DNA from: Selenomonas bovis DSM 23594
GTDB taxonomy: Bacteria > Bacillota > Negativicutes > Selenomonadales > Selenomonadaceae
Direction: 5' to 3'
Length of the DNA: 64,000 bases
Assembly: GCF_000381005.1 (NCBI RefSeq)
Contig: NZ_KB908380.1
Location: 124,001 to 188,000, forward strand
In this document: positions 3,200 to 43,700 of the stretch, in pieces
How positions within the stretch are numbered: position 1 is the stretch's first letter
Layout of the letters: every line of letters begins with the position of its first letter
The notes under the pieces: model-generated
What the model was told of the DNA's origin: nothing
The model's input: the letters and a program-made list of their open reading frames with translations, nothing else
The model's database searches: none
Made by a program: the position numbers and the translations under genes

Positions 3200-4739
3200 G
3201 ATTGTATAATCAATTTGAACACCTAAAAATCCACAGCGGCCTGTGGTAGAATGCAGTAGAACGAATCGCATCTACGAAGGAGGCCGCTATGGATCGTCTA
3301 CAGTCTACCACTGATATGCCCCGCAGGAAATGGGCGCACCTGACATTTGCGGAACGCGTCATCATACAGACCCGTCGGAAGGACAAGTGGTCGCTTCGGA
3401 GGATTGCCCGCGAGCTTGGCTGCGCTGTCAACACCGTACGAAACGAAGTGCGGTGAGGCAATGTCCTCCTCTACAACGGCAAGGTGGAACGCTACCGTGC
3501 TGAGGACGGACAGGCGGCCTACGATGCGAACCGCAAGAACTGCGGACGCAAGTGCGATGCTCTCCGCAAGGGACGATTCCTCGACTATGTCGACAAGAGA
3601 TTCCAGGAAAATCACTGGTCGCTCGATGCCTGCGTCGGCCGTGCTCTCGCCGAAGGTCTCTTCGGACGCGAGGACATTGTCTGCACCAAGACCCTATACA
3701 ACTACGTCACCATGGGCTTCTCGGGAAGATCAAGAGCATCGACCTCCCTCTGCGCGTCAGGCGCAAGAACAAGAAGAAGCATACGCAGGAGCGTAAGAAG
3801 AAGCTGGGACGCAGCATCGAGGAACGCGATCCTTCTATCGAAGAGCGGCAGGAGTTCGGGCACTGGGAGTGCGACCTGGTGCTCGGCGCACGATCGAAGG
3901 ACGAGGTGCTCCTGACCCTGGTCGAACGGAAGACCCGCAGAGCCATACTCCGGAAGCTCCGCAACAAGGAGAGCACCACCGTCCTCGAAGCTTTCCGCAA
4001 GCTCCGGCAGGAAGAGATGTTCAAGGACTGCTTCAATCAGGTGTTCCGGACACTCACCACCGACAACGGCAGCGAGTTCGCACGCCTCTCCGAACTGGAA
4101 GAGATGAACGCCGTGCGCGTGTACTACGCTCATCCCTATTGCTCCTGCGAGAAGGGGACGAACGAGAACCACAACGGGCTGTTCCGCCGCTTCCTCCCAA
4201 AGGGAAAGCGGATGGAGGACTATCCGGCTGGGCACATCGCTCGTGTCGAGGAATGGGCGAACACCCTTCCGAGAAAGATCCTCGGCTACAGCGCCCCGGA
4301 AGAGTGCTTTGAAAAAGATGTCTACCTGTGCAGCGAAGGCCGCAAGCTGGTGGTCAGCGGCATCCGTCATGCAAAAAGCCGGACTGGTTTTGTCAGCGAG
4401 AAGACCTGCTACACCTGCAAAAGCTGCAAGGACTGCCCGCGCAAGGCGGACTGCATCCATGGCAACCACAGCAAGCAGCCGCTTGATGAGCGCACGAAAC
4501 ATTTCGAGGTGGCCAAGGTTTTCCAGCAGGAACGGCAAGAAGACCTGGCGCGTATCACGAGCGAACATGGCATTGAGGTGCGTGTCAACCGCAGCATCCA
4601 AGCAGAGGGAGCTTTTGCCGATGTCAAGGCTGACAGGAACTACCGTCGTTTCCTGACAAAAGGGCATGTCAACGTAGAGGCAGAAACCATCCTGCTGGCA
4701 ATGGCACATAACATTTTTAAGGAACCGCTGATTAAATGA
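3200..4739 (+). mobile_element. Degraded chimeric insertion sequence, IS30 front and IS1182 back
   Basis: The region carries a transposase frame whose first part matches IS30-family transposases and whose last ~140 residues match the C-terminal domain of IS1182-family (DDE_Tnp_1_6) transposases. The switch is near 4320. No terminal inverted repeats could be fixed with confidence: the left end is somewhere near 3195-3230, and the right end coincides with a MITE at 4721. A stop codon and a frameshift make it inactive as written. It sits between two direct copies of a pucR-tail repeat. Confidence 0.6.
3289..4739 (+). pseudogene. Chimeric IS30/IS1182-type transposase, stop and frameshift
   Basis: The ATG at 3289 has AAGGAGG upstream. 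The N-terminus is an IS30 helix-turn-helix (FAERVIIQTRRKDKWSLRRIARELG). A TGA at 3454-3456 breaks the usual RRG motif; CGA to TGA is a transition. Near 3714-3718 a one-base loss shifts the frame (YVTMG, then LLGKIKSIDLPL). The IS30 catalytic residues are all present: Asp in GHWECDLV, Asp in LTTDNGSEF, Glu in CEKGTNENHNG. After LGYSAPEECFEKD the protein changes to an IS1182-type tail (CYTCKSCKDCPRKADC, then EGAFADVKADRNYRRF). The last residues EPLIK and the stop come from the adjoining MITE. Confidence 0.8.
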
Positions 4740-4928: not shown

Positions 4929-5113
4929 TTCCCGCTGCCCGATACTTCCGGCATTTTTCAGGCAACTACTTGCATAGTTCGCCCTGCGGAAAGGGAAATC
5001 CTTCCCGTTGACGACAAATAAAAAAGAGGCTCCCGCCCCTTCTGTCATTCAGCAGCACCACTATCAGCAAACAGCATCATTCCTGTTTCTCGACAATGTC
5101 TTTCATCTTGAAG
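4929..5113 (-). repeat. Copy 2 of the pucR-tail/terminator/leader repeat
   Basis: On the minus strand this runs from the last codons of the intact pucR gene through its terminator into a leader-like stretch (GGGAAGGATTTCC, GGGCGAACTATG, AGTTGCC, ATCGGGCAGCGGGAA) clearly related to 3032-3192. Here no gene follows; the stretch ends near the MITE at 4897. Differences between the copies partly keep the two predicted hairpins (GCC against GCT opposite GGC). Confidence 0.6.
5020..5041 (-). terminator. Terminator of the pucR-type gene
   Basis: On the minus strand AGGGGC-ggga-GCCTCT is followed by TTTTTTA, 36 bases after the stop codon of the regulator. Confidence 0.65.
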
Positions 5114-6261
5114 TAATCACCAACGTAATACGCGAGCATGTAGTCGAAGCAGACGACGGCGTCGTCGAAGTCCGCGCCGGTGATTTCCTTGATCTTGTTG
5201 ATGCGGTAGCTCACGGTGTTGCGGTGCGCGTACATGGCGCGCGCCGTCTCCTGCAGGCTGTTCATGTGGAAGAGATAGTAGCGCAGCGTCGGCGCGAGCT
5301 GCGCGTTGTGCTGCTCATCGTAGCGGAGAAGCGGCACGAGCAGCGACTCGTAGAGCTTGCGCAGCGTGCGCATGTCCTTGAGCGCGAAAAAGACGCTGTA
5401 GACGCCGATGTCGTCGAACTGCATGACCGGCTTTTCCGTGAGGCGCGCGACCTCGAGCGCCGCCTCCGCCTGCTGGTAGGCCTCCGTGAGCCCCGCGTAC
5501 TCCATGTGGATCTGGCTCTCGCCGCAGAACTGCGGCGCGGCCTCCTTCGGCAGGGCCGCGAGCAGTTTCTCCGAGACCGCGAAACTCTCCTCCGGGTTCT
5601 TGTGGAAGATGATGAGCAGCAGATAATTCTGCTGGAAGAAGAGCAGATACGGACGGCGCAGATGGTTGAGCATGCGTTTCCAGCTCGCGACGATGAATTG
5701 CTTCTCGCTTTCCTGGATGGTCTCCCGGCGCAACTCGTAGAGCTTGAGCCGGAACGCCGTATGCGGATACATGCCGCCGCTCAGCGCCTGCAGGTAGTCG
5801 TCTTTCTGGCAGCTCGAGGAGATGACGCCGCGCACGAGCATCTCGAAGTTCAGCTGGTTCTGCTGCGCGAGCAGCAGGCGCTTGCCGTAGTCCTGCACGA
5901 TGTCGGCGAAGCGGATGTGCCAGGGGATCGTGAAGAGCGCGAAATCCTTCTGCGCGCAGTACGCGAGCACGTTTTCGGAGATGTCCTGCTCCGTCAGATA
6001 TTTGCCGATGTTGAGGATGAGGCCGCTCGCGCGGTAGCGCACGAGCTGCTCGATGAACGCTTGCAGCCACCCCTCCCGGCGCTCGCACATGAGCCCCGTC
6101 GTGATGACGAGCTCGCCGCCGCGCAGGAATTTGACCGTGTCGATGTCCTCGCAAAGCTGCACCCACGAGCATTCCCGCGTGAGCCCGGAGTCGCCTGTGA
6201 GCTTGTGGATCTGATATGTTTTCGCCGTTTCCTGGTAAATCTTCTGAATCTGTAACGACAA
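5077..6261 (-). CDS. PucR-family transcriptional regulator
   Basis: The likely start is a TTG at 6261 (SLQIQKIYQ...) because GGGGAGGTGA lies 7 bases before it; an upstream ATG at 6300 has no such site. That gives 394 residues. The N-terminal PucR domain has the family's LTGDSGLTREC..VQ pattern (residues ~20-150). The C-terminus (~340-390) is the PucR-type helix-turn-helix: SLQETARAMYAHRNTVSYRINKI is the family hallmark. Family members respond to metabolites and control catabolic genes. It lies downstream of, and in the same direction as, the permease and Etf-linked oxidation operon and is the obvious candidate to control them; that is inference. Confidence 0.85.
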   Translation of the reverse strand: MSLQIQKIYQETAKTYQIHKLTGDSGLTRECSWVQLCEDIDTVKFLRGGELVITTGLMCERREGWLQAFIEQLVRYRASGLILNIGKYLTEQDISENVLAYCAQKDFALFTIPWHIRFADIVQDYGKRLLLAQQNQLNFEMLVRGVISSSCQKDDYLQALSGGMYPHTAFRLKLYELRRETIQESEKQFIVASWKRMLNHLRRPYLLFFQQNYLLLIIFHKNPEESFAVSEKLLAALPKEAAPQFCGESQIHMEYAGLTEAYQQAEAALEVARLTEKPVMQFDDIGVYSVFFALKDMRTLRKLYESLLVPLLRYDEQHNAQLAPTLRYYLFHMNSLQETARAMYAHRNTVSYRINKIKEITGADFDDAVVCFDYMLAYYVGDYFKMKDIVEKQE

Positions 6262-6406
6262 GAAGCTCACCTCCCCGAAAAACCATCCTGCTGTCCGCAT
6301 ATCAAAAATCAGCCATCGGACGCACGACTTTCACACGCAATAACGCACGGAATAGGCACAGCCCTCAAGAGAGGGGCGATGTGCCTATGAAATCGTGCCT
6401 GCCCTG

Positions 6407-8038
6407 TCAGCTGAACAGGTGATAGAAGCCGAGCACCGTGCAGACGCCGCAGAGGATCGCGAAATAGGGAAGCATGCCGCACTTCTTGAGCGCGGCGCCG
6501 TTCTCCTCCGCCTCGAGCGTGCTCGCGGGGAAGACGCCTTTGTCCTGGATGTAATGGCGGAAGCAGAAGACGGGCAGGATCATCGCGCAGATGATGAGGC
6601 CGATGACGATGTTCGTCGTGCTGATCTTCGCTGCGGCAACGCCGAGGAACGCGAGATTGCAGAAGCTCAGAAGCACGTTGAAGCCGAGAAGCACGGTCGG
6701 CGCGCGGAACGGACGCAGGGCGTCGGCGCGGTCGATGCGATGAATCCAGCCGGACTGGAGATTGAGCCAGTTGAAGAGGATGTAGCCGCAGTTCGAGGCG
6801 AGGAGCACGACCATATAGTCAGACATCATGAGCAGGATGAGATTGAACGAGAGATCCGTGAGCATCGCGTAGATCGGCGAGCCGTGCTTGTTGACCTTCG
6901 TGAGGTAGCGCGGCAGCCAGCCGTCGACGCTCGCCTGATAGAGCGTGCGAGACGAGCCTGCCATCGACGTCATGACGGCGAGCGCGATGGAGAGCAAGAG
7001 CATGACGACGATGAAGTTCGTGAGCGTCGCGCCGCCGTGGAGCAGGTCGCCGAGCGCGCGGGCCACGCCCGAGCCGGCGACGATTTCCGGCGCGCGCAGC
7101 CCGTCGAGCCCGAGGGAGCCCTCGAAGACGAACGGCACGATGGAGAACATGAGGATGCAGAGCAGGCCGGAGAAGACGAGCGACTTGATGACATCCGTCT
7201 TCGGATGCTTGAACTCGCTCGTGTAGCAGACGCAGGTCTCGAACGCGTAGGTGGACCAGGCGGCGACATACATGCCGCTGAGGAAGATGCCGATCCCTTC
7301 AAAGTCCCAGGCGCCATTCAGCGGGACGAACGGCTGGAAGTTCGCCATATCGACGTCGCCCGCGAGGAGCGGCCCGACGGAGCAGAGCAGGAGCGGCAGC
7401 AGGCCGGCCATCGAGAGGATCATCGTGATCTTCGCGGCCTTCGAGATGCCGAAGTACTGCGCGGTGAAAATGCTGATGAGGATGAACGCTCCGAGGAAGA
7501 ATGTCGCGTTCAGCCGGAGCGTCAGACCGTCGATGGCCCAGCTGAGGTCGGCAATCGTGTACTGCCACGTCATGACGGCGGAGTCCGCCGGGAAGATGCT
7601 CGTGAGCAGGTAGCCTGCCATGAGCCCCGTGCCGATCGCGAGGATCGGCGTCCAGGCGATCCAGTTGCACCAGACGGAGAGCGGCGCGATGAACTTGCTG
7701 TACGGCAGCCAGCCGATGGAGCCGTAGACGGAGGCGCCGCCCGACTTATTCGGGAAGAGGCCGGAAATCTCGGCGTACGTGAACGCCTGGAAGAAGCCCA
7801 TCGTCACAGAGAGCGCCCAGATGAGGCAAGCCGGCGTACCAACCTGGTCAGCGAGGGCTCCGACGGAAAACAGCACGAGCGCGGGAACGCCGCTGGCGAT
7901 GAAGAAGACATCGATCCAGGAAAGCGACCGCTTCAGCGTGTTGACATGACCATGAATCGTTGATTCCACGGCAGGCGCACCAGCGGGAGAACCCACGGAT
8001 TCGCTCCCCACCGGTGGACGAAGTAGTAGATCACTCAT
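6407..8038 (-). CDS. APC-superfamily amino acid permease
   Basis: The start at 8038 (MSDLLLRPPVG) is preceded by GGAGGGC; it gives 543 residues. About twelve hydrophobic helices fill residues ~60-540. The N-terminal helix region (LSWIDVFFIASGVPALVLFSVG) is the usual APC entry, followed by FTYAEISGLFPNKSGGASVYG, the conserved loop of the family. It should be a proton-coupled or exchange transporter for an amino acid or amine. It lies between the PucR regulator and the Etf-linked oxidation operon, so it may import that operon's substrate. Its leader has a promoter and an early terminator. Confidence 0.85.
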   Translation of the reverse strand: MSDLLLRPPVGSESVGSPAGAPAVESTIHGHVNTLKRSLSWIDVFFIASGVPALVLFSVGALADQVGTPACLIWALSVTMGFFQAFTYAEISGLFPNKSGGASVYGSIGWLPYSKFIAPLSVWCNWIAWTPILAIGTGLMAGYLLTSIFPADSAVMTWQYTIADLSWAIDGLTLRLNATFFLGAFILISIFTAQYFGISKAAKITMILSMAGLLPLLLCSVGPLLAGDVDMANFQPFVPLNGAWDFEGIGIFLSGMYVAAWSTYAFETCVCYTSEFKHPKTDVIKSLVFSGLLCILMFSIVPFVFEGSLGLDGLRAPEIVAGSGVARALGDLLHGGATLTNFIVVMLLLSIALAVMTSMAGSSRTLYQASVDGWLPRYLTKVNKHGSPIYAMLTDLSFNLILLMMSDYMVVLLASNCGYILFNWLNLQSGWIHRIDRADALRPFRAPTVLLGFNVLLSFCNLAFLGVAAAKISTTNIVIGLIICAMILPVFCFRHYIQDKGVFPASTLEAEENGAALKKCGMLPYFAILCGVCTVLGFYHLFS

Positions 8039-8091: not shown

Positions 8092-8132
8092 AAAACAAAA
8101 GGCCTCCATGGACCAACGGGTCCATGGAGGCC
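8092..8132 (-). terminator. Strong terminator in the permease leader
   Basis: A 14-base-pair perfect stem (GGCCTCCATGGACC and its complement, four-base loop) is followed on the minus strand by TTTTGTTTT. It lies ~25 bases after the likely transcription start and ~55 bases before the permease start codon, so it may act as an attenuator. It could also end the upstream Etf operon. Confidence 0.75.
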
Positions 8133-8161
8133 TCATCGCCTCATCTCTATCGTATGAATGA

Positions 8162-8190
8162 AGTATAGCACAGCTTCTTTCATACAACAA
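8162..8190 (-). promoter_or_regulatory. Promoter of the permease gene
   Basis: On the minus strand TTGTTG is separated by exactly 17 bases from TATACT. No other good promoter lies between the terminator and the permease start. Confidence 0.55.
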
Positions 8191-8216
8191 TGAGCCGATT
8201 GAACAAAAAACAGGGC

Positions 8217-8230
8217 GATGATTGTGTACG
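8217..8230. promoter_or_regulatory. Candidate operator, ATGATTGTG motif
   Basis: The sequence GATGATTGTGTACG lies ~30 bases upstream of the permease -35 box. A closely related motif occurs twice upstream of the aldehyde dehydrogenase operon promoter (16887-16899 and 16921-16933). Shared upstream motifs suggest one regulator for both units. Confidence 0.35.
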
Positions 8231-8250
8231 ATAAACAATATGTGTATTTA

Positions 8251-10383
8251 TCAAGAGGACGCTGTTAACATTTCTCCATCACTTTCCTCTGTTTTGTCGG
8301 CAGAAAGGCAATCAGCGATCAGCTCGGCGATGTCTTTGACGGCAAGCTCTTTCTCCATGCCTTCCGTCTTCACGGCGTCATCAAACATCGCGAGGCAGTA
8401 CGGGCAGGCGACGGCGAGCACATCAGGATGCGCGCTCTCCTTGATCTCGCGCAGGCGCAGCGAGCTGACCTTCTCCTTCTCCGGCACATTGAACCAGGCG
8501 TTGCCGCCGCCCGCGCCGCAGCAGAAGCTCGTATCCCGGCACTTTTCCGGCTCGACGAGGGAGGCGCCCGGCAGCTTCTCTATGACCGTGCGCGGTGCAT
8601 CGTAGATGCCGTTCATCCTGCCGAGATTGCAGGGATCGTGATAGGCGATGTGCGCGAGCTTCGCGTCCTTGGCGGCCAGCGGCAGCTTGCCCTCCTGCAC
8701 GAGCTGCGCGAGGAGCTCCGTGTGGTGGATGACCTTGAGCTCGAGACCGAAGTCCTTGTACTCATGCAAGAGCGTGTTGTAGCAATGCGGGCACGCCGTG
8801 ATGAACGTCTTATCCGCATAGGGTTCGAGATACTGGACATTCTCCATCGCGAGCAGCTGGAACCTGCCCTCCTCGCCGAGGCGTTTGACGACCTCGCCGC
8901 AGCATTTCTCCTCCGCGAGGATGGCGAAGTTCACGCCAGCTGCCTGAAGCACGCGGATGATAGCGCGCGTAACTTCCTGGTTGCGCTGACCATAGGCACC
9001 CGCGCAGCCGACCCAGAAGATATAGTCAGCATCCGGATTGTCCTCGATGTCGGGAATCCCATCATCGAGCAGCCACTCCATGCGCTCATAGGACGGCATG
9101 GCGTAGGGATTGCCATTGCGTTCGACCGCAGAGAGCAACGCTGCCTGCTTGTCCATGATCTCTCCCTTGGAGAAGAGATGGCGCCTGAGATCGAGCGTGT
9201 ACTCGACATGATGGATGGAGGCAGGACACTCCTCCATGCAGGCACCGCAGTTCAGGCAGGACCAGGCGGCATTCTCCGTGATTACGCCATCCGTGAAGAC
9301 GTCGGCGCCCTCTCCTTCCTCGACGCTGTCCTCATCGAGAACGAAATCACTTGCCTCCGCCCTTTTCATGCCGAGGGACACCGGCGGCGCCTGGAGCGTC
9401 TTCTTGAGTCCCTGCACGAGCAGGCGCGGCGAGAGCTCACGTCCAGCGACGTGCGCGGGGCAGACGCGCTCACAGCGTCCGCAGTTGATGCAGGCGTCGA
9501 GCTCGAGGCAGCGCTTCCAGTCAAGGTCTTTCACTGTCGCGATGCCCATCTGCGGCTCGGCGTCATCGTCCTCCGCCATCTCCATGAGGTTAAAAGGCAT
9601 GGAGAGCTTCGCCTTCGGCACGCCAATCGTTTCGAGAAAGAGATGCACGGGGATCGCGACAATGTGGAAGAGCTTCGTAAACGGCACGATGGCGAGCATC
9701 GTGAGCGCCGCGAAGAGATGCACCCACCAGAGCACCGGATAGGCAGATGGCACGGCAGCCGCCGGCACGAATGCCGCAAAGATGCTGCCGACATAGGAGT
9801 AGCCGCCCCAGGCGACGGGATGCGCCGCGAGGCGCATGCCCTCGAGCAAGAGGCCGCTCACGCCGAGGAACAGGAGCAGGAGCAGCACGGGAACTGCGTC
9901 GCGCGTGTTCTCGAGGTAGTCAGGCTTCGCGAGCAACCGGCGTCCGAGCGCCATGAGGCAGCCCGCCACGAAGAAGAGCGCCGCCGTATCGAGTGCGAAT
10001 TCGAAGAAGAAGTAGGTGCCGTTTTTGAGGACCGTCACACCGATATGCGAGAGGAGGTCCTGCTGGAGCGCCACGGTCATCGTACCGAGCGTAAGGAGGA
10101 GCATGCCTCCGTAGATGAACCAGTGGAACGCCCCCGCAAAGGGACGGCGCGTGATCTTCTTGTGCAGGAGACCCAGGGACACCACGTTCCTGAGGCGCGC
10201 CATGCCCGTCTCCTTCGCATCCGCCACAAGCTCGGCAAGCGCCGCCTGTGGGCGGATGCCGTAGCGCAGGAAGCGCCGATAAAATCCGTAGGCCATCACG
10301 CCGATGAAGACGAGCGACAGCGGATAAATGACTGCGCCCGCGGCCTTTGGCATGAATGGCAAAAATTCCCTTACTGCATCCAT
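8251..10383 (-). CDS. Membrane Fe-S oxidoreductase, Etf:(mena)quinone oxidoreductase type
   Basis: This 710-residue protein begins at the ATG at 10383 (a GTG at 10392 is also possible). Residues ~1-250 hold about six membrane helices of the nitrate-reductase-gamma type. Two 4Fe-4S motifs follow, CINCGRCERVCP and CLNCGACMEECP, and then two CCG domains (GCAGAYG..CCGEVV, and HDPCNLG..CCGAGGG). This is the layout of the DUF224 proteins next to etfBA that pass electrons from Etf to menaquinone, known from syntrophic fatty-acid oxidisers. It is the last gene of the leftward operon, 26 bases after etfA, and probably delivers the pathway's electrons to the quinone pool. Confidence 0.8.
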   Translation of the reverse strand: MDAVREFLPFMPKAAGAVIYPLSLVFIGVMAYGFYRRFLRYGIRPQAALAELVADAKETGMARLRNVVSLGLLHKKITRRPFAGAFHWFIYGGMLLLTLGTMTVALQQDLLSHIGVTVLKNGTYFFFEFALDTAALFFVAGCLMALGRRLLAKPDYLENTRDAVPVLLLLLFLGVSGLLLEGMRLAAHPVAWGGYSYVGSIFAAFVPAAAVPSAYPVLWWVHLFAALTMLAIVPFTKLFHIVAIPVHLFLETIGVPKAKLSMPFNLMEMAEDDDAEPQMGIATVKDLDWKRCLELDACINCGRCERVCPAHVAGRELSPRLLVQGLKKTLQAPPVSLGMKRAEASDFVLDEDSVEEGEGADVFTDGVITENAAWSCLNCGACMEECPASIHHVEYTLDLRRHLFSKGEIMDKQAALLSAVERNGNPYAMPSYERMEWLLDDGIPDIEDNPDADYIFWVGCAGAYGQRNQEVTRAIIRVLQAAGVNFAILAEEKCCGEVVKRLGEEGRFQLLAMENVQYLEPYADKTFITACPHCYNTLLHEYKDFGLELKVIHHTELLAQLVQEGKLPLAAKDAKLAHIAYHDPCNLGRMNGIYDAPRTVIEKLPGASLVEPEKCRDTSFCCGAGGGNAWFNVPEKEKVSSLRLREIKESAHPDVLAVACPYCLAMFDDAVKTEGMEKELAVKDIAELIADCLSADKTEESDGEMLTASS

Positions 10384-10409
10384 TCTGCTCACCGCCCTCC
10401 TAGTTCCTT

Positions 10410-11270
10410 TCAGTCGCCGATGGCTTCCTCAAGCGCCGGCAGGACCTCATAGAGGTCGCCGACGATGCCGTAGTCCGCGAATTGGAAAATCGGCGCCTTC
10501 TTATTGTTGTTCACCGCCACGATAATCTTGGAATCCTTCATGCCGGCGAAGTGCTGAATCGCGCCAGAAATGCCGAGCGCGATGTAGAGATCCGGCTTGA
10601 CGAGCGCGCCCGTGATGCCGACCTGATGCTCCTGCGGCAGCCACTTGAGCTCCTCAGCGATGGGCCGCGAGCAGCCGATCTCCGCGCCGAGCTTCGCGGC
10701 AAGCGCCTCGACAGCGCTGATGTCTTCCTTCTTGGCGACGCCGCGCCCGAAGGAGACGATGCGCTTCGCCTTCGTGAGGTCGACGGTCTTCGCGAGCGGC
10801 TCCGTCTTCACGAGCTCCTTGCTTGGCGCGGCGGCAGCCGCGGGCGCGGCCGCGGCCTCGAAGCTCCCGGCCGTCTCTACGCCCGCGAGCGCGGAGAGCG
10901 CGACCGTGAGCACGGCCGTCTCCGTCTCGAAGGCGAAATTCCCCACGGCGATGCCGCCGTAGATCGCGCGCTTCGCCGTGAGCTTGCCATCCTGCGCGGC
11001 GAGCGAGAGCGCCTCGGTGACGCAGCCCGTATCGATGAGCTGCGCGGCGCGCGCCATGACCTCGTTGCCCTTCTTCGACGCCGGTGCGATGAGCACCGCA
11101 GCGCCTGCCGCTTCCGCGGCTGCCTTCACGGCCGCCGCCTCCTGCTCCGGGAAAGCGCTTCCCGCCTTCAGATAAACGATGCTGCCCTCTGCGAGGGGAG
11201 CTGCGAGCGCAGCGAGACGGCCTGCCGTCTCTTCTGCTGCCGCGTAGATCAATACTTTATATGCGCCCAT
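10410..11270 (-). CDS. etfA: Electron transfer flavoprotein alpha subunit
   Basis: The ATG at 11270 overlaps the etfB stop by one base (TGATG), so translation is coupled; 286 residues result. The N-terminal half is the Etf alpha/beta domain. After an Ala-Pro-rich linker (AAAAPAAAAAPSK) comes the FAD domain with its hallmarks: VSFGRGV, GCSRPIAEE, QVGITG, LYIALGISGAIQHFAGM and ADYGIVGD. The protein binds FAD and shuttles electrons from a dehydrogenase to the membrane oxidoreductase encoded next. Whether this Etf bifurcates cannot be decided from motifs alone. Confidence 0.95.
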   Translation of the reverse strand: MGAYKVLIYAAAEETAGRLAALAAPLAEGSIVYLKAGSAFPEQEAAAVKAAAEAAGAAVLIAPASKKGNEVMARAAQLIDTGCVTEALSLAAQDGKLTAKRAIYGGIAVGNFAFETETAVLTVALSALAGVETAGSFEAAAAPAAAAAPSKELVKTEPLAKTVDLTKAKRIVSFGRGVAKKEDISAVEALAAKLGAEIGCSRPIAEELKWLPQEHQVGITGALVKPDLYIALGISGAIQHFAGMKDSKIIVAVNNNKKAPIFQFADYGIVGDLYEVLPALEEAIGD

Positions 11271-12049
11271 CAGTTCATCACCTTCTCTTCCTCCAGATAC
11301 TTCACAAGCGTCTTCGCGGCCTCGGCAGGCGTGCCGTCGATCATGATGTTCTTGCGCTCCTGCTCGGGAATCTCGTAGCCGAGCATCGTGACGGCCGGCA
11401 TCTCGAGCACGCTGTCCTCGAGGCCGAGATCCTTGAGCTTCCACTGCTTGATGCGGTCGGAGCGGACCTTCATGATCTGGATGGCGGTCGGCAGGCGCGG
11501 CACGTTGATGGCGCTGCTCACCGTGAGCAGGGCCGGCAGCGGGCCTTTGACCGTCTCAGCCGTATCCTCAAGCGTGCTCACCGCCTCATAGCCGCCTTCG
11601 GTCGCCTGGAGCGCCGTGACATAGCTGACCGCAGGCAGGTCGAGGCGCGCGGCGACGCGTGCGCCCGTCTGGCTGTTGTAGCCATCCTCGGAGACCTCGC
11701 CGCAGAGGACGAGATCGACGGGAGCGAGTTTCTCGACCATCTTCGAGAGAATCAGCGAGACCTGCGCCGTATCGAGCTGCTGGCGCGGGGAGACCGTGAG
11801 CAGATAGGCGTTATCTGCGCCCATCGCGAGCGCCTCCTTGAGTGTTTTGACCGCGTCGCGCGGTCCGATGGAGATGAGCGAGACCGTCGCTCCGAGCTCC
11901 TTCTTGAGCTTCACCGCCTCCTCGACGGCGTTTTTATCGTAGTCGTTGATCTTCGTGGAAAGACCGCGCAGCACGAGCTCGTTCGTCTTCTTGTCGACAT
12001 GGATCTCCGTGCTGTCCACGACATGTTTCACACAAACAACAATGTGCAT
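11270..12049 (-). CDS. etfB: Electron transfer flavoprotein beta subunit
   Basis: The start at 12049 (MHIVVCVKHVVDSTEIHVD) follows GGAGGTGT at good spacing; 259 residues. Etf-beta signatures include NDYDKNAVEEAVKLK, SIGPRDAVKTLKEALAMGADNA, and the SDRIKQWKLKDL region near the C-terminus. It forms the heterodimer with EtfA. The gene is separated from the preceding small gene by ~115 bases that contain a stem-loop at 12076-12112. Confidence 0.95.
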   Translation of the reverse strand: MHIVVCVKHVVDSTEIHVDKKTNELVLRGLSTKINDYDKNAVEEAVKLKKELGATVSLISIGPRDAVKTLKEALAMGADNAYLLTVSPRQQLDTAQVSLILSKMVEKLAPVDLVLCGEVSEDGYNSQTGARVAARLDLPAVSYVTALQATEGGYEAVSTLEDTAETVKGPLPALLTVSSAINVPRLPTAIQIMKVRSDRIKQWKLKDLGLEDSVLEMPAVTMLGYEIPEQERKNIMIDGTPAEAAKTLVKYLEEEKVMN

Positions 12050-12075
12050 GCCAGACACCTCCTATATACAGAAAC

Positions 12076-12112
12076 GCCGGGAGATGTACGCCTCATCTCT
12101 GCATCTCCCGGC
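12076..12112. other. Intercistronic stem-loop between the small gene and etfB
   Basis: GCCGGGAGATG at 12076-12086 is complementary to CATCTCCCGGC at 12102-12112. The minus-strand side is not followed by a T-run, so it looks like an mRNA processing or stabilising hairpin rather than a full terminator. Confidence 0.5.
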
Positions 12113-12164
12113 ATTTCCCGGCTTTTCTCACATGAGCCGCCAGAAACGGCTCGCAAAAGCTGCC

Positions 12165-12365
12165 TCAGCTCTCAAGCTCTTCTTTCGTGTAGCCCGGCAG
12201 GCAGCGGCAGGCTTCCTGCTCGTGCATCCACGTGAGATAGAGCATGCGATCCTGATGCATCTTCTTAATCGCCTCGTCATTCACCGTGTGCTGATGGAGA
12301 TACTCCGTCATCCGCCAAGGCTCGACTTCGTAGTAACCGTCTTTCTTTACAACCTTCTCAGCCAT
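12165..12365 (-). CDS. Small 66-residue protein of the Etf operon, unknown
   Basis: The ATG at 12365 sits 3 bases after the stop of the Fe-S gene, with GAGGTG overlapping that stop, so the gene is almost certainly translated. The protein is charged, has no membrane helix and carries a single CRC pair (EACRCLPGY) near the C-terminus, plus WRMTEYLHQH and YLTWMHEQE. I do not recognise a family. Its place between the Fe-S subunit and EtfB suggests an accessory subunit or assembly factor of the oxidase complex. Confidence 0.65.
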   Translation of the reverse strand: MAEKVVKKDGYYEVEPWRMTEYLHQHTVNDEAIKKMHQDRMLYLTWMHEQEACRCLPGYTKEELES

Positions 12366-12368
12366 TTC

Positions 12369-13586
12369 TCACACCTCGATTCCCATGCAGTAAGCGACGA
12401 CTTCCAGGATGTGCACCGGCTCGATGTTGATGCCGGACTTCGTCTTCGTCTCGGCGAACATGTCCTTGCAGTGCGGGCACGCGAGCAGCAGCACCTCGGC
12501 GCCGACATCGTTCGCGTGGCGCAGGCGGCGCACGCCGATCTTGTAGGCGATATCCGGCAGCGCCTTGCGGAACGCGCCGGAGACGCCGTTGCCGCAGCAG
12601 TACTTCCACTGGAGAATCGGCTTCTCGATATCAGCGTGCGTGCCAGGCAGGGCCGCGATGATCTCGCGCGGCGCCTGGTAATTGCCGCAAAGCTTGTTGA
12701 GGCTGCACGGATCATGGTACGTGACATTCTTATTGTACGGCTTCACGAACGCGATCTTATCCGCCTTGATGAGGTCGTTGACGTAGTCCGTGATGTAGAC
12801 AACCTCGAACGGCAGCGTGCCGCAGTAGCGCGGATACTCCTTGATGAAGTAGGAGTACTCATGCGGGTTGACGAGGATGACCGTCTTGGCACCAGCGGCT
12901 TTGAGGTCGGCAACGTTCTTCTTTGCCGCCTCAACCCATTTGTCCTCATCCGTCTCGTAAAGCTCGCCCGTCGTGACGTGCGGATGCTTGAGGATGCCGA
13001 ATTCCACTCCGGCTGCCTTGAGGATCTTCGCCGCAGCGATCGGCACTTCGCGCGTCTGGAACGCATTGTAGTAATCGACGAACATCATCGTCTCGCCGGA
13101 GAACGGCAGATCGAGGCCAACAGACCAGCTCGTGAGCTCCTCATCGGGACCTGCATCGTGCGCGAGGTGCTCATCGATGACCTGCTGCACCTCGTCGAAC
13201 CCGTCGTAGTCGATGCCCTGCGCGTGGAGATCGCGGCGCATCTTGCGCACGAGATCGACGGTCGTCGTCGCATAGTGGTAGAAATCGCCGCCGAACATCG
13301 TGTTCGGGCACTTGAGCTCGCACTGGCCGCACTCGAGGCAGTGAATGAACTCGTTCTTCATCTCGGGGAGACTTGCGTTGCCGCGCGCGAGCGCCAGCGT
13401 CGAGGTGTGCACGCCGTAGGACGTGTAGGACTCGTTGCGCTCCTCGACGTAGTCAGGACACCACTCACGGCAGAATTTATGGCGGCAGGCAAAGACGTTG
13501 TAGCAATCCTTCGTTAATTCGTCCGAGATGGGCGCATCCTTTTTGACCGGCTCATCGTAGAATTCCTTATAGCTGAGTATTTCCAT
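12369..13586 (-). CDS. (Fe-S)-binding CCG-domain oxidoreductase subunit
   Basis: The start at 13586 (MEILSYKEFY) has GGAGGG six bases upstream; 405 residues. The N-terminus has an unusual Cys set (CYNVFACRHKFCREWCP) and a normal CLECGQCELKCP 4Fe-4S motif. CCG-type half-domains follow (HDPCSLNKLCG, KYCCGNGVSG, LLACPHCKDMF). Such proteins are the Fe-S partner of GlcD-like FAD oxidases in glycolate or lactate oxidation. Here it lies directly after the FAD oxidase (33 bases) and before the Etf genes, so it probably relays electrons from flavin to Etf. Confidence 0.85.
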   Translation of the reverse strand: MEILSYKEFYDEPVKKDAPISDELTKDCYNVFACRHKFCREWCPDYVEERNESYTSYGVHTSTLALARGNASLPEMKNEFIHCLECGQCELKCPNTMFGGDFYHYATTTVDLVRKMRRDLHAQGIDYDGFDEVQQVIDEHLAHDAGPDEELTSWSVGLDLPFSGETMMFVDYYNAFQTREVPIAAAKILKAAGVEFGILKHPHVTTGELYETDEDKWVEAAKKNVADLKAAGAKTVILVNPHEYSYFIKEYPRYCGTLPFEVVYITDYVNDLIKADKIAFVKPYNKNVTYHDPCSLNKLCGNYQAPREIIAALPGTHADIEKPILQWKYCCGNGVSGAFRKALPDIAYKIGVRRLRHANDVGAEVLLLACPHCKDMFAETKTKSGINIEPVHILEVVAYCMGIEV

Positions 13587-13619
13587 TTCCAGCCCTCCCT
13601 TTCTATCATGCAAATCATC

Positions 13620-15146
13620 TCAGTAGGCAAGATGCAGGTTGTACTTTCCGGGGTTCATGATGTTATTCGGATCGAACATCTTCTTGATCCGCTTCATGAG
13701 ATCGAACTGACCGTCTGCGAGTTCCTTGTCGATGAGGACATCGATATCGCCCTCGCGGCAGGCGCCGTGGCAGATGGAGATGGAGCCGCCGAGCTCTACG
13801 GCGAGTTCTGCGATCTCGCGCTTCATGTCGAGCCAGCGCTCCCAGAGCTCCGGCGTCATCGCGAGCTCATTGATGAAGACATCGACCTCGGCGAGATAGT
13901 CGCCCCAGGTACGGTACGGACCGCCCGTGTAGATGAAGCAGCCGGCGTCATCGAAGATGCCGTCGTATTTCTCGACGTACTTCTTGACGATCTTGTGCAG
14001 GCCGTGCGTGAACTCGGGGAGTTCGCTGTGGATCATGCAGTTATCCTCACAGTGCCACGACATCGTGACGACCTGACCTGCCTTGTTGCGGCAGTGCACG
14101 GCGAGATGATAGCGGTCGTGGCGGGTCGCCCAGTCGCCCCAGGCCTGTTCCTCGCCGAGGTAGTGGCCGCCCGCGGCCTTCATGATAGAAAGGGACTTCT
14201 TGCGCGCCGCGAGGACTTCGCCTTCCGTGCCGGCGAACGTCGCCATGACGACGCACTTGACGGTCTCCGGCAGGGGGATGAACGCGTCATCGTCGCGGCG
14301 CAGGAAATCGATTTTCTCATCGTCGAACATGATATAGTTGACGGCACACTTGATGCCAGAAATACCCATTTTGAAAAGTGCCTTGTAGGCCGCATCGTAG
14401 CTGGGGAAGCCGAAGTAGGACGGGAACTCGACCTCCGGTTTCGGTGCGCAGTCGAGCACGGCCTCCGTCACGACACCGAGCGTGCCCTGATGGCCGAAGA
14501 AGAGCTCGAGCATGCGGAACCCGGCGGAGGAGTTGCGGCATTTCTTCGAGCCGCCCTTGCCGACGCGGACGATCTGACCGTCGGGGAGGACGACCTCCAT
14601 GCTGCAGACGAGGTTCGCGGGATGGCCGGAGCCTGCGCCCGCGACGCTCCAGCCGTTCGTTCCGATGCGGCCGCCGATGACGGCCGTGCCGTAGGAGGCG
14701 GGATCATCCGGATAATACATGCCGACTTTCGCGAGGACTTTGTTGAGCTCCTGCATATTGACGCCCGGCTGCACCGTGACCGTGCGGTTGATGTCGTCGA
14801 CCTCGAGGATCTCCGCCATGCGCTTCATATCGAGGCAAATGCCCTTGTTGAGCGGGAACGCGCCATCCGCGAGGCCGCAGCCAGCGCCGCGGGGCACGAC
14901 GGGCAGTCGGTACTTGTTCGCGAGCTTCATGACCTCGGAGACTTCATCCGTGTTGCCCGGCAGGACGACGACATCGGGGATGTGATCCTCCCAGCGCTGC
15001 ATCGGGAACGGGGCGCAGGACGCGGCGCGGATCGCGCGGTCGTGCATGCTCGTCATGACGTTTTCCTTGCCGACGATGTCCTCGAGCTCCTCGATGTGGT
15101 CGGCGACATTGCCGTAGTTAAACTTGCTGAAATCTATTTTGCTCAT
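13620..15146 (-). CDS. FAD-binding oxidase of the GlcD superfamily, divergent active site
   Basis: The 508-residue protein starts at 15146 after GAGGAGGAGTG. The PCMH-type FAD domain is clear: DVVVLPGNTDEVSEVMKLAN, the PRGAGCGLADGAFP loop, IGGRIGTNGWSVAGAGSG, FFGHQGTLGVVTEAVL. The C-terminus ends FDPNNIMNPGKYNL as in the family. However, the two catalytic-domain hallmarks kept by the paralogue at 33744 (GHAGDGN and GEHGIG) are replaced by WHCEDNCMIHSE and SICHGACREGD. A substrate other than a simple 2-hydroxy acid is therefore likely. With its neighbours it would reduce Etf. Confidence 0.8.
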   Translation of the reverse strand: MSKIDFSKFNYGNVADHIEELEDIVGKENVMTSMHDRAIRAASCAPFPMQRWEDHIPDVVVLPGNTDEVSEVMKLANKYRLPVVPRGAGCGLADGAFPLNKGICLDMKRMAEILEVDDINRTVTVQPGVNMQELNKVLAKVGMYYPDDPASYGTAVIGGRIGTNGWSVAGAGSGHPANLVCSMEVVLPDGQIVRVGKGGSKKCRNSSAGFRMLELFFGHQGTLGVVTEAVLDCAPKPEVEFPSYFGFPSYDAAYKALFKMGISGIKCAVNYIMFDDEKIDFLRRDDDAFIPLPETVKCVVMATFAGTEGEVLAARKKSLSIMKAAGGHYLGEEQAWGDWATRHDRYHLAVHCRNKAGQVVTMSWHCEDNCMIHSELPEFTHGLHKIVKKYVEKYDGIFDDAGCFIYTGGPYRTWGDYLAEVDVFINELAMTPELWERWLDMKREIAELAVELGGSISICHGACREGDIDVLIDKELADGQFDLMKRIKKMFDPNNIMNPGKYNLHLAY

Positions 15147-15258: not shown

Positions 15259-16737
15259 TCAGCCCTCGAACCAGCCGATGGGCGCGACATTCAAGTTCAC
15301 GTTGATCTGCTTGACCTCCGTGTATTCCTCATACCCGTAGGTGCCGAGCTCGCGGCCGCCGTTGCCGCTCTCCTTGTAGCCGCCCCACGGCGCTTCGTTG
15401 TACGTGGAATGATAGCCGTTGATCCAGGTGATGCCTGCCCGCAGCGCCTTGATCACGCGCATCGCCTTCGCGCCGTCCTGCGTGAAGCAGGCACCGGCGA
15501 GGCCGTAGCGCGTATTGTTCGCCATGCGGATCGCATCTGCCTCGTCCTCGAAGACCTGCACCGCGAGCACCGGACCGAAAATCTCATCCTTGACGATGCT
15601 CATATCCTCCGTCGTATCCGTGAAGATCGTCGGCTCGACGAAGAATCCTTTCGCGAGGTCTCCCTCCACCATGCGGTGGCCGCCGCAGGCGAGCGTCGCG
15701 CCCTCCTGCACGCCGAGACCGATGTAGTGGAGGACTTTCTCCATCTGGCGCTCCGAGACGAGCGGCCCCATCTCGACGCCAGGCATGAGACCCGGCCCGA
15801 CTTTGATCTTCTTCGCACGTTCGACGAGGCGGGCGATGAACTTCTCCGCGATGCTCTTCTCGAGCAGCAGCCGCGAGCCCGCCGCGCAGATCTGCCCCTG
15901 TCCGGCGAAAATCGCGAAGAGCGCGAAGTCCACGGCCGTCTCGAAATCCGCATCGGCGAAGACGATGTTCGGCGACTTGCCGCCAAGCTCCAAAGAGACG
16001 CGCTTGAGGTTGCCGACAGACGCGGCGAGGATCTTCTTGCCTGTCACCGTGCCGCCTGTGAACGCAATCTTGTCGACGTCCGGGTGCTCGCTGAGCGCCG
16101 CGCCGACCGTCGCGCCCGCGCCGAGCACGAGGTTCGCCACGCCCTTGGGGATGCCGACCTTCTCCATGAGGCCGAAGAACTTGATCGTCGAAAGCGGCGT
16201 GATCTCCGCTGGCTTGAAGACGACCGTGTTCCCGGCAGCGAGCGCCGGCGCCATCTTCCACATCGCCATGAGCAGCGGATAGTTCCAGGGAACGATCTGC
16301 GCGCAGACGCCGATTGGCTCGCGCACCGTGAGCGCCTGCATGTCCTCCGGCACATCGTAGGTGACACCGTAGGGCTTCGTCGCGAGGCCTGCGTAGTAGC
16401 GCAGGCAGTTCGCCGCGTCGCTCACATCGCACTCTGCCTCCCTGAGCGGCTTGCCGCTGTCGAGCACCTCGAGGTGGGCGAAGTCCTTTGCCTCAGCTTC
16501 GAGCGCATCGGCGAGTGCGAAGAGGAGTGCTGCCCGCTCCCCTGCTTTCATCTCGCGCCAGGAGGAATGGTCGAATGCCTCACGCGCCGCCTTGACAGCT
16601 ACATCGACATCTTCCTTCGCTCCCTCGTAGACTGTTCCGATCACCGACTGGTCGGCGGGGTTGATGATGTCCCGCGTCACGCCGGACTTTGACGGCACCC
16701 ACGCGCCATCGATATACATGCGTCCCGGCTCTGCCAT
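15259..16737 (-). CDS. NAD(P)-dependent aldehyde dehydrogenase, betaine-aldehyde type
   Basis: The start at 16737 (MAEPGRMYIDG) has GGGAGC upstream; 492 residues, the usual length. Family landmarks in order: PWNYPLLMAMWKMAPALAAGN, FKPAEITPLS, FTGGTVTGKKI, the catalytic Glu in LELGGKSPN, the catalytic Cys in GQGQICAAGSR, and KDEIFGPVLAV. It oxidises an aldehyde to the acid; closest by eye to BetB/ALDH9-like enzymes. It is the first gene of the leftward Etf operon, 112 bases ahead of the FAD oxidase. Its product or its substrate may be shared with that oxidase, so substrate naming stays open. Confidence 0.9.
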   Translation of the reverse strand: MAEPGRMYIDGAWVPSKSGVTRDIINPADQSVIGTVYEGAKEDVDVAVKAAREAFDHSSWREMKAGERAALLFALADALEAEAKDFAHLEVLDSGKPLREAECDVSDAANCLRYYAGLATKPYGVTYDVPEDMQALTVREPIGVCAQIVPWNYPLLMAMWKMAPALAAGNTVVFKPAEITPLSTIKFFGLMEKVGIPKGVANLVLGAGATVGAALSEHPDVDKIAFTGGTVTGKKILAASVGNLKRVSLELGGKSPNIVFADADFETAVDFALFAIFAGQGQICAAGSRLLLEKSIAEKFIARLVERAKKIKVGPGLMPGVEMGPLVSERQMEKVLHYIGLGVQEGATLACGGHRMVEGDLAKGFFVEPTIFTDTTEDMSIVKDEIFGPVLAVQVFEDEADAIRMANNTRYGLAGACFTQDGAKAMRVIKALRAGITWINGYHSTYNEAPWGGYKESGNGGRELGTYGYEEYTEVKQINVNLNVAPIGWFEG

Positions 16738-16777: not shown

Positions 16778-16811
16778 AAAAAGCGCTCATACCCTCGTCG
16801 GATATGAGCGC
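16778..16811 (-). terminator. Early terminator in the aldehyde dehydrogenase operon leader
   Basis: A nine-base-pair stem GCGCTCATA/TATGAGCGC is followed on the minus strand by TTTTT, and nothing T-rich follows on the plus side. The only transcripts it can stop start in the divergent intergenic region to its right, so it lies inside the operon's own leader, ~41 bases before the start codon. Confidence 0.75.
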
Positions 16812-16851
16812 CCTTGCTCTTGACTTGCTGTTTTCTTTTGATTACAATGTC

Positions 16852-16880
16852 ATTCTAGCACCGGCCCCCACAGGGGACAA
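16852..16880 (-). promoter_or_regulatory. Promoter of the aldehyde dehydrogenase-Etf operon
   Basis: On the minus strand TTGTCC and TAGAAT are separated by 17 bases. The start would fall ~35 bases ahead of the leader terminator. Confidence 0.5.
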
Positions 16881-16886
16881 CGGCAC

Positions 16887-16934
16887 GCGTCACAATCATT
16901 GACTGCAAACTTTGTTCACTGTGCACAATCAAAA
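16887..16934. promoter_or_regulatory. Two candidate operator sites, CACAATCA motif
   Basis: CGCGTCACAATCAT (16886-16899) and GTGCACAATCAAAA (16921-16934) are the complement of the ATGATTGTG motif upstream of the permease. They sit just upstream of the operon's -35 box, between the two divergent genes. Confidence 0.35.
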
Positions 16935-43542: not shown

Positions 43543-43618
43543 GCTGATTTAGCTCAGTTGGTAGAGCAGCTCATTCGTAATGAGCAGGTCGTAGGTTCAA
43601 GTCCTATAATCAGCTCCA
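43543..43618 (+). tRNA. tRNA-Thr (CGT), first copy
   Basis: A 76-base cloverleaf with acceptor GCTGATT/AATCAGC, D-arm AGCTCAGTTGGTAGAGC, anticodon stem CTCAT/ATGAG around loop TTCGTAA (anticodon CGT, reading ACG), T-arm with GGTTCAAGTCC, and encoded CCA. Confidence 0.97.
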
Positions 43619-43624
43619 TATCTT

Positions 43625-43700
43625 GCTGATTTAGCTCAGTTGGTAGAGCAGCTCATTCGTAATGAGCAGGTCGTAGGTTCAAGTCCTATAATCAGCTCCA
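43625..43700 (+). tRNA. tRNA-Thr (CGT), second identical copy
   Basis: Identical over all 76 bases to the preceding tRNA, six bases downstream, also with encoded CCA. The two are co-transcribed from one promoter and end in the terminator at 43712. Confidence 0.97.

Follow-up and report, generated by a model that had tools for sequence, protein, structure and literature searches.

Two Selenomonas leaders with an upstream palindrome at a fixed distance and a six-base-loop hairpin at the terminator base: probable PucR-type activation with ANTAR-like antitermination

The window, the whole 64,000-nucleotide stretch of the genome of the rumen bacterium Selenomonas bovis DSM 23594 (G000) that was analysed, contains two adjoining transcription units on its reverse strand (Table 1): an oxidation operon of six genes of the aldehyde/FAD/ETF type and a unit in which an APC-family permease gene is followed directly by a pucR gene, whose product was found to contain PucR and HTH_30 domains. 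A DUF3089 gene lies upstream of the oxidation-operon leader and is divergent from the operon. The oxidation operon is carried by four of the six other genomes of the genus (G001, G003, G004, and G006), which gives five carriers with the window genome. No close homologue of the permease was found in the rest of the family outside the genus; beyond the genus, it is closest to proteins of proteobacteria (Burkholderia, Mesorhizobium, and Methylophaga, ∼50% identity), which suggests a horizontal origin. An open reading frame whose translation, judged by eye, resembles an IS30-type transposase is located at 3552-4739 (+), where it separates the permease-pucR unit from the genes that follow.

Table 1. 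Genes and leader features of the two units (offsets are relative to the first base of the -10 element)
Feature	Position	Strand	Remarks
PucR-type regulator	5077-6300	-	PucR N-terminal domain, GGDEF-like domain, HTH_30; presumed activator
APC-family permease	6407-8038	-	ATG at 8038; NCBIfam TMAO-permease model, score barely above cut-off
Permease leader terminator stem, 16 bp	8099-8134	-	Strongest terminator of the scan
Permease mini-hairpin GAGGC[GAUGAG]GCCUC	8127-8142	-	Loop position 1 is G; A in orthologues G003, G004, G006
Permease promoter TTGTTG-17-TATACT, extended -10 TGCTATACT	8162-8190	-	TGC-TATACT with -10 at 8167-8162; -35-like TTGTTG at 8190-8185; extended -10 identical across all species
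Third half-site TTGT, permease, within TTTTTTGTTCA	8203-8206	-	At -39; 100% conserved
17-bp palindrome (candidate operator) TTGTTTATCGTACACAA, permease	8222-8238	-	-71 from the -10
Oxidation operon, remainder: GlcD-like FAD oxidase, Fe-S HdrD-like protein, EtfB, EtfA, membrane Fe-S/HdrD-LdhH-like protein	8251-15146	-	
Aldehyde dehydrogenase, betaine-aldehyde-dehydrogenase-like, oxidation operon gene 1	15259-16737	-	ATG at 16737
Oxidation-operon leader terminator stem	16782-16812	-	-23 kcal/mol; U tail to ∼16777
Oxidation-operon mini-hairpin GAGC[AAGGGC]GCUC	16806-16819	-	A1, G4, C-G closing; 3' arm is the base of the terminator 5' arm
Oxidation-operon promoter TTGTCC-17-TAGAAT, extended -10	16852-16880	-	Extended -10 88% identical between species
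Third half-site TTGT, oxidation operon, within ATGATTGTG	16892-16895	-	At -38
17-bp palindrome (candidate operator) TTGTGCACAGTGAACAA, oxidation operon	16912-16928	-	-71 from the -10; same offset in orthologues, permease and gabT promoters

The leaders of both units adopt the same order of promoter, intrinsic terminator, ribosome site, and gene, and this order is kept in each of the five genomes of the genus that carry the operon. Such leaders had been proposed for both units in a sequence-only reading of this DNA; their coordinates were confirmed, and the proposal is borne out by comparison with shuffled sequences and by conservation in G001, G003, G004, and G006. Relative to dinucleotide shuffles, the folds of the two leaders of the window have z-scores of -5.7 and -3.4, and the leaders of the relatives are likewise more stable than their shuffles (z-scores of -3.7 to -6.0). 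An alignment of the upstream regions of both units from all carriers shows conservation of the terminator stem, its U tract, and the extended -10, while loops and spacers diverge. The terminator stems are 100% paired in every species, with two-sided changes at one and two pairs and several G-U changes. The 205-kb contig has 12 intergenic regions between divergent genes, and among these a strong U-tailed terminator less than 100 nt from a start codon is found only in the oxidation-operon leader. Because the upstream DUF3089 gene is divergent, this hairpin can act only on the leader of its own operon, as the sequence-only reading had held. The permease hairpin is also situated downstream of the last gene of the oxidation operon (stop near 8251) in the same direction, and may double as the 3' terminator of that operon.

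Several other features of the leaders were considered. A leader peptide in the permease leader was rejected on inspection, as its frame and stop vary between species, and a CTCCATG/CATGGAG stem was rejected as a specific signature, as like hairpins are found at other loci elsewhere in the genus. No covariance-model match to an Rfam riboswitch, T-box, or other leader was obtained at the two leaders. The top promoter-like match of the scan, TTGACT-17-TACAAT at 16820-16848 (+), is directed toward the divergent DUF3089 gene from inside the oxidation-operon leader; judged by eye, it is not conserved in relatives.

Anchoring the upstream regions on the -10 element revealed a 17-bp palindrome, TTGKN9ACAA. 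In 10 of 10 promoters (both units, five genomes), it lies upstream of the -10 at a distance of exactly 71 bp, counted from the first base of that element. A further TTGT half-site is observed at -39 or -38 in the permease and oxidation-operon promoters. The 2.7-Mb genome contains only four matches to the strict pattern TTGTNNANNNTNNACAA, two of them at the permease and oxidation-operon promoters. The upstream motif that the sequence-only reading had taken to be shared by the two units, ATGATTGTG, occurs twice in the window (0.35 expected) and did not hold up as the common element: its copies have opposite orientations with respect to the genes that they precede, cover different arms of an inverted-repeat array, and are found in G000 and G001 only, with the motif absent from G003, G004, and G006. 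The conserved element is instead the palindrome at -71.

The palindrome is also found upstream of other genes. In the window genome, gabT is transcribed divergently from a second PucR gene, and the gabT promoters of five species have TTGTGC-N5-GNACAA-like sites, with the first base varying, also at -71. In a family-wide search of 189 genomes, the combined operator and promoter pattern gave 20 matches, compared with 2 for the reversed control; matches in other genera precede gabT (G049 and G050) and a gene for an amino-acid ABC ATPase (G178), and all three have leader terminators. PucR-family proteins are known to bind inverted repeats, with lengths of 17, 24, and 21 bp reported for PutR, AdeR, and GabR, respectively (PMC7652997); the comparison with PutR concerns the reported length of the site, not its sequence. 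Taken together, the shared palindrome at -71, the PucR-linked targets, and the inverted repeats known for this family make a PucR-type regulator the likely ligand of the palindrome. In G005, an aminotransferase gene (L228, contig C195) adjoins a third PucR gene; its upstream region has TTGTGCAAACTGACGAA at -71 as well as TGCTAGACT, and its leader terminator carries AGC[AACGAA]GCU. No leader terminator was seen at other TTGTN9ACAA sites, such as the one upstream of a PTS IIA-like gene (C16:45930), and further weak matches to the pattern, including L236, L238, and L239, were set aside because they do not resemble leaders.

In each of the two leaders, the bases just 5' of the terminator can pair with the 5' base of the terminator, yielding a mini-hairpin of 4-5 bp with a six-base loop, such that terminator and mini-hairpin are mutually exclusive folds. 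The predicted fold strongly favours the terminator over the mini-hairpin. The oxidation-operon orthologues have the forms GAGC[AAGGGC]GCUC, GAGC[AAUGGC]GCUC, and GGGC[AGCGGU]GCUC, and the permease leaders have GGGC[AUCGAA]GCCU and GAGGC[AUCGCG]GCCUC, with GAGGC[GAUGAG]GCCUC in G000 and G001. A loop with A at position 1 and G at position 4 (A1/G4) that overlaps the terminator 5' base is thus present in five of five oxidation-operon leaders and in three of five permease leaders (G003, G004, and G006), loop position 1 of the permease hairpin being G rather than A in G000 and G001. Comparison of A1/G4 mini-hairpins across leaders, with a stem of at least 3 bp and overlap with the terminator base, extends the series: the gabT leaders have CGGC[AANGGC]GCCG in the genus and GGC[AAAGGU]GCC and GGC[AAUGGA]GCC in another genus, the stem of the G005 aminotransferase leader comprises 3 bp, and the ABC transporter leader of G178 has GAGU[AAAGGC]GCUC.

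With a stem of at least 4 bp, the A1/G4 form is found in only 2 of 128 intergenic terminators, those of the oxidation operon and of amtB-glnK; shuffled leaders give this form in 0.5-2.4% per leader. Hexaloops in general were rejected as a signature: without the A1/G4 rule they occur in 11 of the 128 terminators, about as often as loops of other sizes. Two-sided covariation was found in none of the mini-hairpin pairs in the permease or oxidation-operon alignments; the 3' arms of the mini-hairpins are constrained by terminator pairing in any case. In the gabT leaders of G006 (L246) and G004 (L229), the operator and promoter are kept and the terminator and mini-hairpin are lost together, a natural deletion that offers a control.

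The mini-hairpin is reminiscent of the P2 hairpin of ANTAR targets, which overlaps the 5' base of the terminator and is characterised by a conserved closing pair and by A and G as the first and fourth loop bases (PMC3369931). The pattern AGCANNGNNGCT..AGC..TTTT was discarded as a descriptor of P2, its matches being no better than those of the reversed control and mostly ordinary terminators. A search of the window genome for RCAANGGNGY followed by TTTT, in which every match was folded and its context checked, returned strong terminators with the mini-hairpin at amtB-glnK (twice), amt2, gabT, and the oxidation operon, as well as at an operon encoding an amino-acid ABC transporter, where the mini-hairpin reads UCGC[AAAGGC]GCGA. 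The amtB-glnK leader (G000:C2:120620-122600, L174 and L256), located ∼1.4-3.4 kb before the start of the window, contains two tandem terminator/mini-hairpin units, CAGGC[AAUGGA]GCCUG and GGGAC[AACGGC]GUCCC, downstream of a near-consensus promoter; these are conserved in most of the genus, and the U tract of the second copy lies beyond the matched string. Across three genera, the element is present in most of the amt loci examined, and some amt loci gave no match. In the amt2 leaders of G000, G001, G002, G004, and G005, a second A1/G4 hexaloop ∼22 nt upstream, with a weak stem, completes a dual form. The PucR palindrome was not seen in the amt leaders displayed. A short sequence, CATCA or CCATC, recurs just 3' of the -10 in the amtB, gabT, and G178 ABC leaders and is perhaps start-site context or a degenerate P1.

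Each of the seven genomes of the genus encodes exactly one ANTAR protein, the gene of which neighbours a sensor kinase gene, as read by eye. The ANTAR protein of the window genome aligns over its full length with Rv1626 (1s8n) and EutV (6wsh/6ww6). Nearly all of the residues that contact the RNA loop in EutV, the roles of which are taken from PMC8934654, are retained: R142, K143, K149, E160, Y164, and M172 are identical, and K147 is replaced by Arg.

These features suggest that both units combine PucR-type activation with ANTAR-like antitermination through a single hexaloop, a reading to which we assign a probability of about 0.68 from sequence comparison. Initiation would depend on a PucR-type activator, for which the product of the pucR gene that follows the permease gene is the simplest candidate. 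The activator would bind the 17-bp palindrome, centred ∼63 bp upstream of the -10 start, together with the further half-site, and would activate the extended -10 promoter when substrate is present. Elongation would then be stopped by default at the intrinsic terminator, 20-40 nt into the transcript. The base of the terminator 5' arm could alternatively form the mini-hairpin of 4-5 bp with its six-base A1/G4 loop, and an active ANTAR response regulator would hold this mini-hairpin, blocking the terminator and allowing transcription into the operon. The ANTAR protein presumably responds to a nitrogen-related signal, given that genes for ammonium transporters, PII, and GABA transaminase are preceded by the same element. 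The sequence-only reading had suggested common control of the two units by attenuation or antitermination together with a DNA-binding regulator; the identical operator spacing, the conserved terminators with some compensatory changes, and the mini-hairpin shared with nitrogen genes all point the same way. A broader version of the proposal, which we hold at even odds, is that this Selenomonas lineage uses an ANTAR attenuator with one hexaloop and no P1 as its standard nitrogen switch and that, in amine-catabolism units, the attenuator has been joined to a PucR-type operator with constant spacing to give a compact gate requiring both substrate and nitrogen signals.

The leader terminators may be genuine and be regulated by something other than the ANTAR protein, such as a different RNA-binding protein, translation, or a ligand, with the likeness of the hexaloop to ANTAR sites being incidental. 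The missing P1 in both leaders, the permease loop without A1 in two genomes, and the mini-hairpin without double-sided covariation are consistent with such a factor. It is nonetheless unlikely, since the same loop consensus recurs in independent nitrogen-gene leaders of three genera, including amt2 with its second hexaloop, and since the two loci match no Rfam riboswitch or leader and G000 and G001 encode no CAT_RBD (BglG/LicT-type) antiterminator. The terminators could also be passive and serve only to damp the basal leakage of PucR-activated promoters, readthrough being unregulated. A leader terminator is indeed present at all PucR-linked promoters examined in detail except gabT of G004 and G006, where it has been lost; however, the loop letters conserved in gabT of two genera (AANGGN) are not needed by the terminator fold, and the same element is present at amt genes, in whose displayed leaders the PucR palindrome was not seen, which makes a passive role quite improbable.

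A further explanation is that the permease hairpin serves only to end transcription of the oxidation operon and that the two loci are alike by chance. This would fit the position and direction of the last operon gene, after which no other terminator is evident before the hairpin. A conserved promoter is nevertheless found between that gene and the hairpin, the hairpin is in the permease leader in five of five species, and the oxidation-operon leader has the same layout with no gene upstream from which to terminate; this explanation is accordingly very hard to sustain. Antitermination through a single hexaloop, under a PucR-type activator, thus remains the preferred reading.

The closest known systems are the ANTAR dual-hexaloop leaders of nitrogen regulons (EutV/eut, NasR/nasF, and AmiR/amiE; Ramesh et al. 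2012, PMC3369931). Similar to these, the leaders described here usually have, where the terminator begins to pair, a hexaloop of the A1/G4 type closed by C-G, are associated with nitrogen genes (ammonium transporters and PII), and occur together with a REC-ANTAR protein with conserved loop contacts. The main differences are that most leaders here, including those of the permease and the oxidation operon, have one hexaloop and no P1, are very short, and are accompanied by a fixed PucR-type operator. In the eut system, antitermination requires P1 (PMC3369931, PMC8934654). As a P1 hexaloop upstream of the mini-hairpin was looked for and is absent from both leaders, they are not assigned to the dual-hexaloop family; their mode of action is most likely similar to that of its members. 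The promoters resemble those of PucR-family regulators (Bacillus subtilis PutR and AdeR, Corynebacterium glutamicum GabR) in having the regulator beside its targets, a palindrome of 17-24 bp upstream of the promoter, and gabT as a target (PMC7652997), and differ from them in that the site is farther upstream (-71 from the -10 start), the spacing is invariant, and a leader terminator is coupled to the promoter. As in the RAT antiterminators of BglG/LicT, a short hairpin overlaps the terminator 5' arm, but the RNA element is different and the window genome has no CAT_RBD protein.

In a literature search, no account of leaders of this kind was found for the lineage. Structural work on EutV concluded that the minimal ANTAR target is one hexaloop, yet both are needed in eut, and the reason for having two was left open (PMC8934654); a natural leader with one loop would therefore be informative. 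If such leaders work with one hexaloop, the role of P1 becomes directly testable, and single- and double-loop leaders (amtB and amt2) would be available for one ANTAR protein in the same genome. The combination can also be searched for as a module, by which genes whose substrates are unknown, those of the permease and the oxidation operon among them, may be assigned to a nitrogen or amine regulon. Elsewhere in the window, a pair of tRNA genes with equal scores, ∼10 nt apart, is located at 43543-43697 (+).
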